Source: Synechococcales cyanobacterium C42_A2020_086 (GTDB lineage Bacteria > Cyanobacteriota > Cyanobacteriia > Elainellales > Elainellaceae). Taken from it: a stretch of DNA of 64,000 nt. Both the position numbers and the translations under genes were made by a program. Under the pieces are notes generated by a model, which did no database searches, was not told where the DNA came from, and saw only the letters and a list, made by a program, of their open reading frames with translations. Shown here one piece after another: positions 57,710 to 64,000 of this stretch (its first letter is position 1; the number at the start of each line of letters is the position of its first letter). The stretch is taken from positions 62,001 to 126,000 of the forward strand of contig JACYLU010000001.1 of NCBI GenBank assembly GCA_015272325.1. Reading direction: 5' to 3'.

Positions 57710-58241
57710 CGTATTCCTTCTCCTTCATCAGCCATCCTTGCGTAGTATAGGGTACTAAGCGTTACAGAATAAAGTTTTGTGAAATCAGTGGATTTAATCG
57801 AAGCATTGGCGAATATCGTAGGTCCTCTAATAACTCGTCCTAAAATTGGACGCTCTAGCCCCGTCTGCCCTCGGTCGTCAGCTGGAATAAAAAATTCATC
57901 GGTCTTTAATAGACTTCCCGTCTAGAATTCCTGAAAAGTTTACGAATTGCTGCCAATTTGTCCGGGATACTACGGGTAGACCATGAAGCTGCTTAAAGCC
58001 CCCAAAGCCTCTTAGGGCCAGGCATCAACTATCAAACGCATTGTTTACGGTCTATCGTTACTGACAAGCAACTGGAATTTCTCAGTGATTTCAACCTTAC
58101 GCCTCTTCTGCAGACAGCTTATTAAGTGACCTATAGAGGGATGTATTGCTTGCTCAAACCACGGACACTAGATATTACAAAACACATGCTGAACCCGGTT
58201 GAGCTGTAGTAATGACGGGCTGTACCACTCGTGAGGACGGT
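57710..58241. other. Divergent gap between crtR and the TPR gene
   Basis: Contains the crtR promoter and, on the other side, an AT-rich stretch at 58130-58200 before the TPR gene. I see no RNA gene or coding sequence in about 530 bp. Confidence 0.5.
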
Positions 58242-59039
58242 ATGAATCCACACTCTTTCATCAATCGTAAAAAGCAAGTCAGCCATTCGCGGCGCGGCGC
58301 GGCAGCGCCTCAGGTAACCTCGTCAAGCAATCGGCCGAGTACGCAAGTCAGTTTGGCTCAAAAGCAGTATTCAGCCAACCATGGCAAACCAACTCGTTCA
58401 GCTCATCAGGGACAATCAGTGTTGCGTTTAAATTCAGCAGAACAGGATACCCTCCTGCGGCAACGCGCTTTAGTTGAAGCTCAGCATGGAAACCACGCCG
58501 AAGCCATCACCATTTTCAGTGAATTGATCACCCGCAATCCTAGCAACGCCAATCACTATAGCAATCGCGGCTTGGTGTACTTCCAGAGTGGTCAACTCGC
58601 TGCGGCCATCGCTGACTACAATCGGGCCATTGAGCTGAACCCCCGCCTCGACAGTGCCTACAATAACCGGGCTAACTACTATGCAGCTCAGGGGCAGTTT
58701 CTAGAAGCTATTCTCGACTACGATATTGCCCTCGATCTCAACCCAGCAAACGTTCGAGCCTGGATCAATCAGGGGATTACCTTCCGGGAACTGGAGATGT
58801 ACGCTCGCGCCCTAGAAAGCTTTGAATTGGCGCTTTGCTTGGGCAAGCTAGAGGGACATATCTACGCCGAACGGGGGCGTACCTACCATCTGCGTGGCGA
58901 TTGGAACTGTGCCATGGGCGACTATCAACGCGCCTTGGAAAAACTATCGCAAACCGGCGATACGGTTCTACCATCATCGACGCGGCTGCGGTTGCAGGTC
59001 GAAGCTTGGCTCAACGAGCTGCTGCACCCGCTGAGATAG
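58242..59039 (+). CDS. TPR-repeat protein
   Basis: About 265 residues from ATG 58242, preceded by GAGGACGGT; an ATG 30 bases upstream has no such site. A polar, basic, Ser/Gln-rich 80-residue start leads to about four or five tetratricopeptide repeats (AEAITIFSELITRNPSNANHY, LAAAIADYNRAIELNPRLD, FLEAILDYDIALDLNPANV and so on). It is likely a soluble scaffold; the partner is unknown. Confidence 0.88.
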   Translation: MNPHSFINRKKQVSHSRRGAAAPQVTSSSNRPSTQVSLAQKQYSANHGKPTRSAHQGQSVLRLNSAEQDTLLRQRALVEAQHGNHAEAITIFSELITRNPSNANHYSNRGLVYFQSGQLAAAIADYNRAIELNPRLDSAYNNRANYYAAQGQFLEAILDYDIALDLNPANVRAWINQGITFRELEMYARALESFELALCLGKLEGHIYAERGRTYHLRGDWNCAMGDYQRALEKLSQTGDTVLPSSTRLRLQVEAWLNELLHPLR

Positions 59040-59067
59040 CCGCTGAACGAGTCGCCGTCTACCCCTT

Positions 59068-59433
59068 CTAGCTAGCCTGCCGCGAGCGAGTCATTTCTAC
59101 CGTGATCTGACCGGCGAAATTGGGAATAGGAGGGCGCTCTTTAGTAAGCCGCACTCGTACCTGTTGAACTGTGGCATCGGCAAGAACGAGCTGAGCAACC
59201 GATTCTGTAGCAGTTTCAATAAGCTGGCAGCGCGTGGTTTGAATCAACGTCTGTACCTGCTGAACAATCTGACGATAATCAAAGGTCTCTTCAAGATTAT
59301 CGCTGTTACTTGCTTGAGACAGGTCGCGCCAAACTGTAAGGTCGATTTGGAACCATTGCCCAAGCGATTGCTCTTCGGGCAGAACGCCTAGGTAGCCATA
59401 GGCGCGGATACCAGTAATGTGAATAGAGTCCAT
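59068..59433 (-). CDS. folB: Dihydroneopterin aldolase
   Basis: 121 residues. The family start DSIHITGIRAYGYLGVLPEEQ, the substrate Glu in LIETATESVAQLVL and the catalytic Lys in VRLTKERPPIPNF are all present, so it should be active. It makes 6-hydroxymethyl-dihydropterin for folate synthesis. It follows proA on the same strand by 55 bp and converges on the TPR gene. A perfect 14-bp palindrome overlaps its start codon. Confidence 0.94.
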   Translation of the reverse strand: MDSIHITGIRAYGYLGVLPEEQSLGQWFQIDLTVWRDLSQASNSDNLEETFDYRQIVQQVQTLIQTTRCQLIETATESVAQLVLADATVQQVRVRLTKERPPIPNFAGQITVEMTRSRQAS

Positions 59434-59444
59434 GAATATTCATG
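59431..59444. promoter_or_regulatory. Perfect 14-bp palindrome over the folB start codon
   Basis: CATGAATATTCATG is its own reverse complement and includes the folB ATG. It could be an operator, a small RNA hairpin that affects translation, or chance. Confidence 0.35.
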
Positions 59445-59488
59445 AGTAGAGTGTATCGGGTCATGGAGGATTGGATGAGCAAATCGGG

Positions 59489-60808
59489 CTACAGGTCCCG
59501 GTGCGTAAACAGTTGAGCATGAGTTCCCGTGTAAGCCGCAACCACATGACCCGTGCCAACAACTTGGTATTTATAGGTTACGAGTCCCTCTAAACCAACT
59601 GGACCCCGAGGCGGCATTTTCTGAGTGCTGATTCCGACCTCCGCGCCAAACCCATAGCGAAACCCATCGGCAAACCGAGTCGAGCAATTGTGAAAAACGC
59701 CAGCTGCATCGACTTGGGCCATAAATTCGGCAGCCGCAGCGGGATCGTTGGTGACAATGGCCTCGGTGTGGCGCGACCCGTACTCGTTGATGTGGGCAAT
59801 AGCAGCCGCTAAGGAATCGACGATCTTAATCGACAGCACGAGATCACTGTACTCCGTTCCCCAGTCTGCATCCGTTGCAGCAGTCATCTCAACAAGGGTG
59901 CAGCTGGCGGCATCACCTCGCAGTTCGACCTGTTCAGCCCGCAGTGCTGCCGCGACCTGAGGCAGAAAATCAGCCGCGATATCGCGATGTACCAGCAGCG
60001 TTTCAATGGCATTGCAAGCCGAAGGATACTGGGTTTTGGCATCTACCGCAATCGCCACCGCCTGCTGCAGATCAGCGGCTCGATCGACGTATAAATGACA
60101 AATGCCATCGGCATGACCCAACACGGGAATCCGAGTGTTCTCCTGCACAAACCGAACAAAGGCATTGGAACCACGAGGAATAATTAAATCCACATCCTGC
60201 TCCAGCTTCAGCAGTTCTAGGGTTTCTTCCCGCGTCGTTAGCAGACGCACAACCGCTGGATCGATGCCGACCTCGATCAAGCCCCGATGAATTGCCTGCA
60301 CCAGAGCTTCACAAGACCGAACGGCTTCCTTGCCGCCCTTCAAAATAACGCCGTTGCCCGATTTCACCGCTAGCGCCGCAATTTGCATCACTGCATCCGG
60401 TCGCGCCTCAAAGATTACCCCTAACACGCCAAGCGGACAGGTGACCCGCCGCATTATTAGCCCTGCAGCTAGCTCGCGATGAATTTGCACCTGCCCCACC
60501 GGATCGGCAAGCCGCACCACATCCCGCACGCCCGCAATACCTGCTGCCAGCTTGTTCGCATCTAGCTTCAGCCGTCCGTAAAGCGCCTTTGCCAGCCCTT
60601 CCGCTAGTGCCGTTTCACAATCTGCCGCATTGGCCGCCAAAAGGTCGGGGGTAGCCGCCTCTAGTGCCGCAGCGATTGCTTCTAATGCCTGATTTCGGGC
60701 AGTAGTGGGCAACACGGCGAGCCGACGCGCTGCATCGCGAGTCTGACGGGCAAGAACGGCCAGAGAAGATGTTGCAGTTTGGGAAGTTTGAACGGTTTGG
60801 GCAGTCAT
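59489..60808 (-). CDS. proA: Gamma-glutamyl phosphate reductase
   Basis: 439 residues. It has the aldehyde-dehydrogenase-like fold with [34 protein letters not shown], the catalytic Cys in [15 protein letters not shown], and [36 protein letters not shown] (described in part). It makes glutamate semialdehyde in proline synthesis. No proB is in the window. A 12-bp duplication (AGTCACTCT[GA]AT x 2) is at 60835-60858 just upstream. Confidence 0.96.
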
Positions 60809-61016
60809 GGTAAGGATTACGGAACGGATGGAACAGTCACTCTGATAGTCACTCTAATTGTGACGGATCTACGGTGGGAGCAGCTTGATTTTTCCAGTAC
60901 TTCTTAGAAAAGCATAAAGCGCGATGAGTGAGCCAAAAGCGTCTGGGCGAGCGACCCAACCATCAGAAACCTCTCGTAGGGATCAGGTCTTGCTCTAGGT
61001 TTGCCCCAGTTTTGTG

Positions 61017-61415
61017 ATGTCTCTGCGATTAACTATGACCGCATCCATGACCCTTCAAGCCGGATTAGAAGCCTTTCAACAGGCACGCTATCTAGAGGCA
61101 ATTTCGCTGCTGGAAGCCTTCTGCCAAAGCTGTAGCATCAGCGAGCAGGACAATTCTCGAGATCACTGGCGCGCCCAGATGTATCTCATTGAAACTTATC
61201 AACGAGCAGGATGCTTAGAACAGGCAGAACAGCTCTGCCAACAGTTGAGCCAATGCCCTAATGCGCAAGTTCAAATCTGGGCACAGCAGAAAGTGCAGAA
61301 GCTAGTGCAGTCGGCAGAGATTGCGCCAGAAACATCTCCTGCTGAGGCAGACGCAGATTGCCCCTCCCTGACTCAACGCGCCAAGCAACTTCTCAGCACG
61401 CTCGTTCGGAGATAA
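61017..61415 (+). CDS. Hypothetical TPR-like protein
   Basis: About 132 residues; the start is unclear because ATG codons at 61017, 61035 and 61047 all lack a good ribosome site. A helical, Gln/Leu/Glu-rich protein: LQAGLEAFQQARYLEAISLLEAFCQ and QMYLIETYQRAGCLEQAEQLCQQL look like two degenerate TPR-type hairpins. Function unknown. It converges on the CBS-CP12 gene, 19 bp away. Confidence 0.72.
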   Translation: MSLRLTMTASMTLQAGLEAFQQARYLEAISLLEAFCQSCSISEQDNSRDHWRAQMYLIETYQRAGCLEQAEQLCQQLSQCPNAQVQIWAQQKVQKLVQSAEIAPETSPAEADADCPSLTQRAKQLLSTLVRR

Positions 61416-61434
61416 ATTCGGCAGAGCAGCTACC

Positions 61435-62058
61435 TCAGGTGTCGTAGATTCGCGCCTCCAGAGCGTCTGGATGTTCCTCGCAGTAGATCTCAAAAGCGGT
61501 TTTGCCAGCGTCATAGAATTTGCTGTCGCGCTGATGGGCTGCCTCTGCCTGCAATTCTTCAACTTCATCCCAAGCTACAGCACACTCTCGCGACATAGGG
61601 CCCTGTTCAGCGCAGATGGCCCGCGCCCGCTCAATCGCCTGCTGAATTCGCTGCTCTAGTACTACCTCCTTCGGCTGCTCTACAAAATCGCCTTTGGTGA
61701 GAATGTCGGTGATTGTGATCATGCCCAGCAAATCGCCCTGAATCACCGGGGCTTGGTGAATGCCAGTATTGGCAAACAGCCGTGCTACATACTCCACGCC
61801 CAGATCCGGGTTCACCACAATGCAAGGTTTGCTCATGATGTCGCAGACGCGGACGCGCTTGGGATCTTTGCCGTAAGCCGTGACCTTGTAGACAATATCG
61901 GTTTCGCTGATCAGCCCGTAGGCATCCTGATCATGCCGGCGCTGAACAATGAGCGAGCGGACTCCTCGTTCCTTCAGCAGCTTCACGGCCTCTGCAACGG
62001 TTGCAGAACCACGAATGGTGGCAACATCGGTGGACATAATATCCGCGGCTTTCAGCAT
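61435..62058 (-). CDS. CBS-CP12 fusion protein
   Basis: 207 residues. Two CBS repeats (about 7-60 and 73-125) bind adenine nucleotides in known family members. The C-terminal 70 residues are a CP12 domain: ARAICAEQGPMSREC (Cys149, Cys159), the core AVAWDEVEELQAEAAHQR, and YCEEHPDALEARIYDT (Cys193). In canonical CP12 a second Cys closes the C-terminal disulfide; here that position is Ala202. CP12 binds GAPDH and phosphoribulokinase to switch off the Calvin cycle in the dark. CBS-CP12 fusions are known in cyanobacteria and may couple this to AMP/ATP. Confidence 0.94.
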   Translation of the reverse strand: MLKAADIMSTDVATIRGSATVAEAVKLLKERGVRSLIVQRRHDQDAYGLISETDIVYKVTAYGKDPKRVRVCDIMSKPCIVVNPDLGVEYVARLFANTGIHQAPVIQGDLLGMITITDILTKGDFVEQPKEVVLEQRIQQAIERARAICAEQGPMSRECAVAWDEVEELQAEAAHQRDSKFYDAGKTAFEIYCEEHPDALEARIYDT

Positions 62059-62102
62059 GAGTAATCCTCGTGTAAGAGCGGTTGACGCCAGTTTATTGTC
62101 GC

Positions 62103-62636
62103 CTATTGTGGGGGCGCTTCAGACGAGGATTGCCGCCTTTCCTCCTGAGATTTCAACGTCAGATACCGCTTGAGAATTTTGCGTGTGGACTTAGACAGCC
62201 GGCGCGAATCGCCAGGCTGATAGAAACAGATGGCTTTAATTTCTTGCATTGGGGTCGGTTCCCCCTCGGCTTCGATCAGGAAAACCTTGTGATGATTGCG
62301 GTTCAAGAAAGCCCCTCGCTGGCGAACACCGCCCATATGGCAGAACAAATACTGCACCGATACGGCTCTCAGCCCGGTTTCTTCCCGCAGTTCCCGAATG
62401 GCAGCCTGAATTCTCATTTCGTTACGGTTAGCGGCTCCACCGGGCAGCGAAAACCGCTCGCCATCTTCAGAGACCAGCAGGATCCCGGCTGGAGTTTCCA
62501 CGAGCGCTGTGCCGCGGCGGCGGGTGTAAACCAAGGCTGCTCTCAATGCCTTACTTTGCTTGCGAATTTGCTTGGTGGTCATCTGAATGACAGTGGCAAA
62601 CTGAGCGTTTAGCTGGTGAAGGGGATGCATATCCAT
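62103..62636 (-). CDS. Nudix hydrolase
   Basis: 177 residues. The complete Nudix box G-x5-E-x7-RELREETGL starts at Gly67 (E73, R81-E82, E85-E86). About 35 residues precede the fold and a Lys/Arg-rich helix (SKSTRKILKRYLTLKS) ends it. It would hydrolyse a nucleoside-diphosphate derivative; the substrate is not predictable. It lies between accC and the CBS-CP12 gene on the same strand (gaps 113 and 44 bp). Confidence 0.92.
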   Translation of the reverse strand: MDMHPLHQLNAQFATVIQMTTKQIRKQSKALRAALVYTRRRGTALVETPAGILLVSEDGERFSLPGGAANRNEMRIQAAIRELREETGLRAVSVQYLFCHMGGVRQRGAFLNRNHHKVFLIEAEGEPTPMQEIKAICFYQPGDSRRLSKSTRKILKRYLTLKSQEERRQSSSEAPPQ

Positions 62637-62749
62637 CCATTTCCTGCCGTGGAGGCAATCACAGCCCTCGATCTCGCTGTCGCTGAACGCAGCCCGATCC
62701 GGTTCTTTCCGCTAGTTTGGCATCGATCCGCCGTTGCGGGCAACGCAAC

Positions 62750-64000
62750 TTAGCCGAGAGAACGCACCATCATTTGTTCAATGAAATTGGTGTAAACTTC
62801 GCCGTCGAGAAACTCCGCTGTGTCCAGAATCTTCTGGTGAAAGCCGATCGTTGTAGGTAGTCCGGTAATCGCAAATTCTCGCAGCGCTCGCCGCATGCGT
62901 TCAATGGCAGCCGGGCGGTCTTGTCCCCAGACGATTAGCTTGCCGATTAGCGAATCGTAGTAGGGCGGAATTTCGTAGTCGGTGTAGACGTGGGAATCCA
63001 TGCGCACCCCTGGACCGCCTGGCGGCAGATAGCCATTGATGCGTCCAGGATGGGGGCGAAAGTTGTGGTCGGGATCTTCAGCGTTAATGCGACACTCAAT
63101 TGCATGACCGCGAAACTGAATTTGCTCCTGCGTAAAGCCGAGCCGTTCCCCTTGAGCAATCCGGATTTGTTCAGCAATCAGGTCGAGTCCGGTGATCATT
63201 TCGGTGACCGGATGCTCCACCTGAATCCGCGTATTCATTTCCATGAAGTAGAAATTGCCCGAGCGATCCAGCAAAAACTCGACGGTGCCTGCTCCGACAT
63301 AGTTAATGCATTGCGCTACCCGCACGGCAGCTGCCCCCATTTTCTCGCGCAGCTCAGCACTGAGGGCGGGGCTAGGGGCCTCTTCTAGCAGCTTTTGATG
63401 TCGCCGCTGGATTGAGCAGTCGCGCTCGCCGAGATGCACGACATTGCCATAGCTGTCGGCCAAGATCTGAAACTCAATGTGGCGAGGCCGCTCAACAAAT
63501 TTTTCCAGGTAAACGCCAGCATTGCCGAAGGCCGCTTCTGCTTCGCCTTGGGCCGCTAGAAACGACTTCACCAGCTCATCTTCACTGCGAACTAGCCGCA
63601 TGCCGCGCCCGCCGCCGCCCGCCGTCGCTTTGATGATGACCGGATAGCCGATTGCCTGAGCCGTAGTCAATGCTTCCTTCTCGTCGGTCAGCAAGCCCTC
63701 GCTGCCCGGCACCGTGGGTACACCAATCTGCTGCATGGTTTCGCGCGCGGTAGACTTGTCGCCCATCGCCCGGATCGCGTCTGGCGAGGGACCGATAAAG
63801 GCAATTTGATGATCGGCACAAATCTCGGCAAAGCGAGCATTTTCCGCCAGAAAGCCGTAGCCAGGGTGGATCGCAGTAGCGTTGCGTGTTAGGGCTGCTG
63901 CAATAATGTTGGGAATATTCAGGTAGCTTTTGCTGCTGGGCGGCTCACCAATACACACGGCTTCATCCGCTAGCTGCACATGCAGCGCATGGCGATCAAT
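62750..64000 (-). CDS. accC: Acetyl-CoA carboxylase biotin carboxylase subunit (5' end outside the window)
   Basis: 417 codons are in the window; the first 30 or so lie beyond position 64000. The visible start reads [20 protein letters not shown], which fits the family just after its N-terminal IANRGEIA region. The ATP-grasp Gly-rich loop [47 protein letters not shown] and the C-terminal [13 protein letters not shown] are all present. It carboxylates biotin on AccB for fatty acid synthesis. Confidence 0.96.

Follow-up and report, generated by a model that had tools for sequence, protein, structure and literature searches.

The window, i.e. the whole stretch of 64,000 nucleotides that was analysed, encodes an ordinary cyanobacterial CBS-CP12 protein, in which an energy-sensing domain is fused to a regulator of carbon fixation, and which is not set apart by its missing cysteine. 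As judged from the sequences compared, the absence of the last CP12 cysteine is a feature of a large, old class of relatives and no peculiarity of this genome.

The coding sequence (61435..62058, minus strand) is a stop-free ORF of 207 aa, whose full-length relatives are at most 80% identical. Pfam assigned to it a tandem CBS pair (two CBS domains, residues 2-126; 61681..62055, minus strand; E 5e-24), followed by a CP12 domain (residues 134-206; 61441..61659, minus strand; profile positions 1-70 of 70, E 1.5e-29), and this domain order, together with the structural match, identifies the protein as a CBS-CP12 fusion. The CBS part contains the motifs GLISETD (48-54) and GMITITD (112-118), which we take to be the nucleotide-binding motifs of CBS domains; an alignment of 34 sequences shows no variation at G48, D54, G112 or D118. 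The CP12 part carries both the canonical N-terminal redox pair, Cys149 (TGC) and Cys159 (TGT) (61582..61614, minus strand), nearly but not fully invariant in this alignment, and the AWDxVEEL core (AWDEVEEL, residues 162-169; 61552..61575, minus strand). The canonical C-terminal pair (C-x8-C with a central Pro) is incomplete: Cys193 (TGC; 61480..61482, minus strand) and Pro197 are present, and residue 202 is Ala (GCG; 61453..61455, minus strand). F189, C193, A199, E201 and R203 are likewise invariant in the alignment. With a CBS fusion, an N-terminal pair and no C-terminal pair, the protein also belongs to the CP12-N-CBS class, as far as this class is defined in PMC3906501.

In the alignment with both the Microcystis CBS-CP12 (PDB 5nmu) and a stand-alone CP12 (PDB 6gfo), the residue opposite Ala202 is the last Cys of ...ECRIYD. 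Translation, codons and alignment thus bear out the preliminary description, according to which C149, C159 and C193 are kept and the final cysteine is replaced by Ala202. A sequencing error at this codon, which that description had named as a possible refutation, is not credible, since GCG differs from TGC/TGT in all three bases and close relatives (75-80% identical) carry the same Ala. The complete set of cysteines is 72, 79, 149, 159 and 193; the first two, Cys72 (61845-61843, minus strand) and Cys79 (61824-61822, minus strand), lie in the CBS part and had not been mentioned before. Cys79, in the second CBS domain, is kept in 218/221 relatives, including those lacking the CP12 cysteines, and its conservation must therefore have another cause. 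Residue 72 is Tyr in 184/221, Cys being found mainly in the window protein's own family.

The relatives, 221 distinct CBS-CP12 sequences, were drawn from sequenced cyanobacterial species. In this sample, which leans to relatives of the window protein and whose proportions are therefore not those of the whole phylum, residues 149/159/193/202 read CCCC in 73 sequences, CCCA in 48 and CCCS in 8, i.e. 56 combine Cys193, Ala or Ser at 202 and an unbroken N-terminal pair, as against 73 with four cysteines. The remaining sequences show losses of the tail, of the N-terminal pair or at other positions. Counted by genome, the CCCA/CCCS form spans 14 families of the class; named carriers of Ala include Elainella, Pegethrix, Microseira, Okeania, Trichodesmium and Gomphosphaeria, Coleofasciculus is among those of Ser, and the named carriers of CCCC are for the most part Nostoc and its relatives. 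Nostoc sp. T09 carries one gene of each form, L085 having four Cys and L104 having Ala. The 56 relatives rule out that the loss is a one-off of the window's genome. That Ala is common at this site in CBS-CP12 is one half of the result which, according to the preliminary description, would refute its view; Ala is indeed common there, and the loss is not supported as a distinguishing feature.

Several variants were observed in the same survey. L008 (the same protein as L033, Elainella saxicola) reads SACA, having lost both N-terminal cysteines and kept Cys193 and Ala202. The CBS-CP12 gene of L018 and L026 (genome G033) has a broken frame as well as two in-frame TAG codons, and is probably a pseudogene or an assembly error. 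In 22 CBS-CP12 or related CBS sequences (L015, L016, L137, L145, L149, L163, L168, L178, L193, L195, L197, L201, L203, L205, L213, L216, L218 and others) the extreme C-terminus is C-[SAG]-G, often with loss of the usual tail cysteines; this ending is possibly a relocated C-terminal cysteine. A tree of the CBS part needed at least 7 Cys-to-Ala changes, a figure to be read with the caution that its 125 columns are too short for dating or counting such changes and that many forks are open. On the same tree some tandem neighbours cluster by their CBS part, as they might after recent duplication or gene conversion.

The tail of the class can be written KTxFExYCEExPxAxEARxYD, with one conserved Cys and a conserved Ala/Ser. 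Among 48 dereplicated sequences of the Ala/Ser group, Pro197 and Arg203 are found in 48/48, Ala199 and Tyr205 in 45/48 and Glu201 in 44/48. All four Ala codons are used at position 202 (58 cases), as expected if Ala has long been held. Cys193 is kept in 59/75 dereplicated sequences with Ala/Ser202, in 29/29 with Cys202 and in 13/33 with another residue, counts that ignore shared ancestry. We read the conserved residues, the four codons and the retention of Cys193 as signs of selection on the one-cysteine tail, not of decay. According to the opposite explanation, loss of the last Cys followed the end of the GAPDH role, and what is left of the tail is a drifting remnant. The existence of other CBS-CP12 subgroups lacking the tail or both its cysteines would agree with this, as would the presence of a stand-alone CP12 for the GAPDH task. 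Such decay is nevertheless very unlikely, given the strong conservation of residues 197, 199, 201, 203 and 205, the maintenance of Ala202 through all four codons, and the fact that 20 genomes have CBS proteins of about 151 aa which carry the same tail on its own.

The window's genome encodes a separate stand-alone CP12 with four cysteines, as well as candidate PRK and GAPDH genes. We consider it fairly probable that the window protein is a nucleotide-dependent fusion regulator which acts on PRK and leaves GAPDH to the separate CP12, and whose tail is not a redox switch of the CP12 type, because a single cysteine cannot form the usual internal disulfide. By analogy with relatives, an adenine nucleotide would be bound by the CBS pair, and the helical hairpin of CP12, which holds Cys149 and Cys159, would act on phosphoribulokinase, whereas the light/dark coupling of GAPDH would be left to the four-cysteine CP12. 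The tail itself would most likely be a redox-insensitive contact surface, or else a single-thiol site bonding between subunits or to a partner; this part is conjecture. Class membership, conservation and gene context were computed here, and the window protein is known from its sequence and predicted structure; from the literature on relatives, with the four-cysteine Microcystis protein as the model system for the mechanism, we infer that it would bind AMP, have an AMP-dependent effect on PRK and form a hexamer through its CP12 domain.

The preliminary description had proposed that, with its C-terminal disulfide gone, the protein may bind only PRK or be controlled by nucleotides. The direction of this proposal is supported: according to the accounts of the Microcystis CBS-CP12 given in reviews and later papers, no GAPDH-CP12-PRK complex is formed and PRK is inhibited in an AMP-dependent manner. 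The Microcystis protein has all four cysteines, and the absence of a ternary complex in this family is thus independent of the Cys-to-Ala change. The premise that the C-terminal pair is needed for the GAPDH functions of CP12 also finds support in direction, because replacement of both C-terminal cysteines of the stand-alone protein led to their loss in vivo (PMC9514657, PMC9623430). The CBS-CP12 of Synechococcus PCC 7002 was unable to substitute for CP12 in Synechocystis, and CBS-CP12 classes without the C-terminal pair had already been described, as far as they are covered in PMC3906501. Part of the earlier interpretation holds, and published work had anticipated most of it.

Could the tail still bind GAPDH constitutively, without redox control, if Ala allowed the helical turn to form without a disulfide? 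Like canonical CP12, it has the central Pro and ends in E-[A]-R-x-Y-D, and the C-terminal CP12 region occurs alone on GapB and ADK3, the latter binding GAPDH with high affinity (PMC8151241). An AlphaFold single-chain model (mean pLDDT 82) comprises the CBS pair, long CP12 helices (130-152 and 157-177), a poorly defined linker and short tail helices (188-195 and 200-206), the confidence in the tail being low to moderate, with pLDDT <50 at residues 178-184 and 205-207. Against constitutive binding stand the effects of the double cysteine replacement in CP12, the lack of a ternary complex in Microcystis even with a full pair, and modelling which, as cited in PMC3906501, argues that CBS-CP12 is unable to bind GAPDH. 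We regard this explanation as unlikely.

A search of 390 genomes with a 38-residue probe across the CBS-tail junction revealed CBS genes that end in a one-cysteine tail without the CP12 hairpin in 20 genomes from 13 genera. The frame is intact and encodes 151 aa in 17/20 matches, the exceptions being L260 (150 aa), L271 (152 aa, its tail being divergent) and L256, where a frame change interrupts the gene. In 18/20 of these tails Ala or Ser stands nine residues after a Cys; in L260 the Cys is replaced by Trp, and in L271 neither residue is in place. Twelve of the 20 stretches contain an adjoining CBS gene with the N-terminal CP12 half or a whole CP12. At L268 the CP12 profile is split between two adjoining CBS genes (L268:1162-1614 and L268:1783-2331), Pfam positions 47-70 being matched by the tail-only protein and 1-45 by its neighbour. 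Split halves were also found at L252, L253, L254, L265, L266, L267 and L269, often accompanied by a same-strand thioredoxin-like ORF, and the order of the two genes differs between loci. The window's genome contains no tail-only CBS partner, its tail matches being the window gene and the stand-alone CP12 only. We found no description of a split CP12 in the literature searched, in which Hackenberg et al. 2018 and Stanley et al. 2013 were represented through reviews and later papers.

Within the survey set, an ORF with a WC[GA]PC motif lies nearby on the same strand at 9/10 dereplicated tandem loci with a tail of the one-cysteine type (counting L150, with Trp for Cys), and none was present near four further tandem loci with a cysteine-free tail. 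Separately, L180, L185, L188 and L220 were seen to be tandem, one member having the cysteine-free tail [SA]YMD[DN]PEVLQxREYDV beside a CBS-CP12 with the N-terminal half. We tentatively suggest that YCEExPxAxEARxYD may be a functional module of its own, redox-insensitive or with a single thiol, and that CP12 halves on two CBS proteins might assemble via their CBS domains. This suggestion is a joint one, i.e. that the module is distinct from the two-cysteine tail and that genes lying side by side, often with a thioredoxin, form a two-chain CP12; taken together it is possible, with the balance tilting against it.

The loci of the full-length proteins with this tail present another picture. Inspection by eye of the ORFs at window positions 58000-64000 revealed no WC[GA]PC motif, and here no thioredoxin gene adjoins the CBS-CP12 gene, and a thioredoxin-like ORF accompanies 0/49 full-length loci with a one-cysteine tail, 46 of them flanked by 1 kb or more on either side. 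As thioredoxin linkage follows a few clades, Fisher values overstate the association. The ORF adjoining the window gene (62103..62636, minus strand) is NUDIX-like, as named by eye from its translation, and such an ORF also lies beside CBS-CP12 in L007 and L010, two relatives from the window protein's own family.

These neighbourhoods bear on the idea that Cys193 has acquired a new disulfide partner, e.g. Cys72 or Cys79, Cys193 of another subunit, or a thioredoxin-like protein, and that the tail is still redox-controlled. Cys193 is indeed retained more often with Ala/Ser202 than in other proteins without Cys202, Cys79 is nearly invariant, Cys72 occurs in the window protein's own clade, and thioredoxin-like ORFs adjoin most tandem loci with the tail on a separate protein. 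On the other hand, Cys79 is also kept where the CP12 cysteines are absent, the 49 full-length loci with a one-cysteine tail lack the thioredoxin neighbour, and no structure puts the tail close to Cys72 or Cys79, so that a new partner appears improbable to us. Returning to the fusion regulator with a tail that is no CP12-type switch, the preliminary view that control is exerted by nucleotides 'rather than by thioredoxin' is only half likely, since TrxA reduces the N-terminal pair in Synechocystis CP12 and this pair is intact in the window protein. The CP12 C-terminal disulfide is the first-ranked light-responsive cysteine peptide listed for Synechocystis (both PMC13214033).

A large class of CBS-CP12 proteins thus does without the C-terminal switch but has retained one of the two cysteines and most of the tail around it. 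As naturally occurring variants, its members may have nucleotide sensing and the control of PRK separated from the GAPDH switch, and the tandem loci, with the CP12 halves on separate CBS proteins, would let the two functions be tested apart. The remaining interest lies in these split loci and in why the lone cysteine and the tail are kept.

The best match to the window protein is the hexameric CBS-CP12 of Microcystis aeruginosa (PDB 5nmu, 5npl, 5nvd; Hackenberg et al. 2018), both by sequence (E 1.4e-80) and by structure (top match, 64% identity, E 1.7e-25). Both proteins have the same domain order and fold (64-65% identity), an intact N-terminal pair and the AWDxVEEL core; however, the Microcystis protein has all four CP12 cysteines and the window protein is without the last one. 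Genes of the Microcystis type adjoin a thioredoxin (e.g. L144), unlike the window gene. Each chain in the Microcystis crystals holds no more than 171-181 of its 208 residues, as would agree with a tail that is unresolved. The CP12-N-CBS class (Stanley et al. 2013, via PMC3906501) resembles the window protein in its CBS fusion, its N-terminal pair and its lack of a C-terminal pair; compared with the class as described there, the window protein keeps the first C-terminal Cys and a well conserved tail. Stand-alone cyanobacterial CP12 (PF02672) shares the whole-profile CP12 match and the core motif, but is devoid of CBS domains and has four cysteines in 32/32 sequences, chosen as best matches; the query, partly retyped from an alignment, was used only for locating homologues. 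Finally, the C-terminal CP12 extensions of GapB and ADK3 (PMC8151241) are a precedent for a CP12 tail without the N-terminal half, as in the tail-only CBS proteins, from which they differ in having a Cys pair and in being carried by an enzyme.
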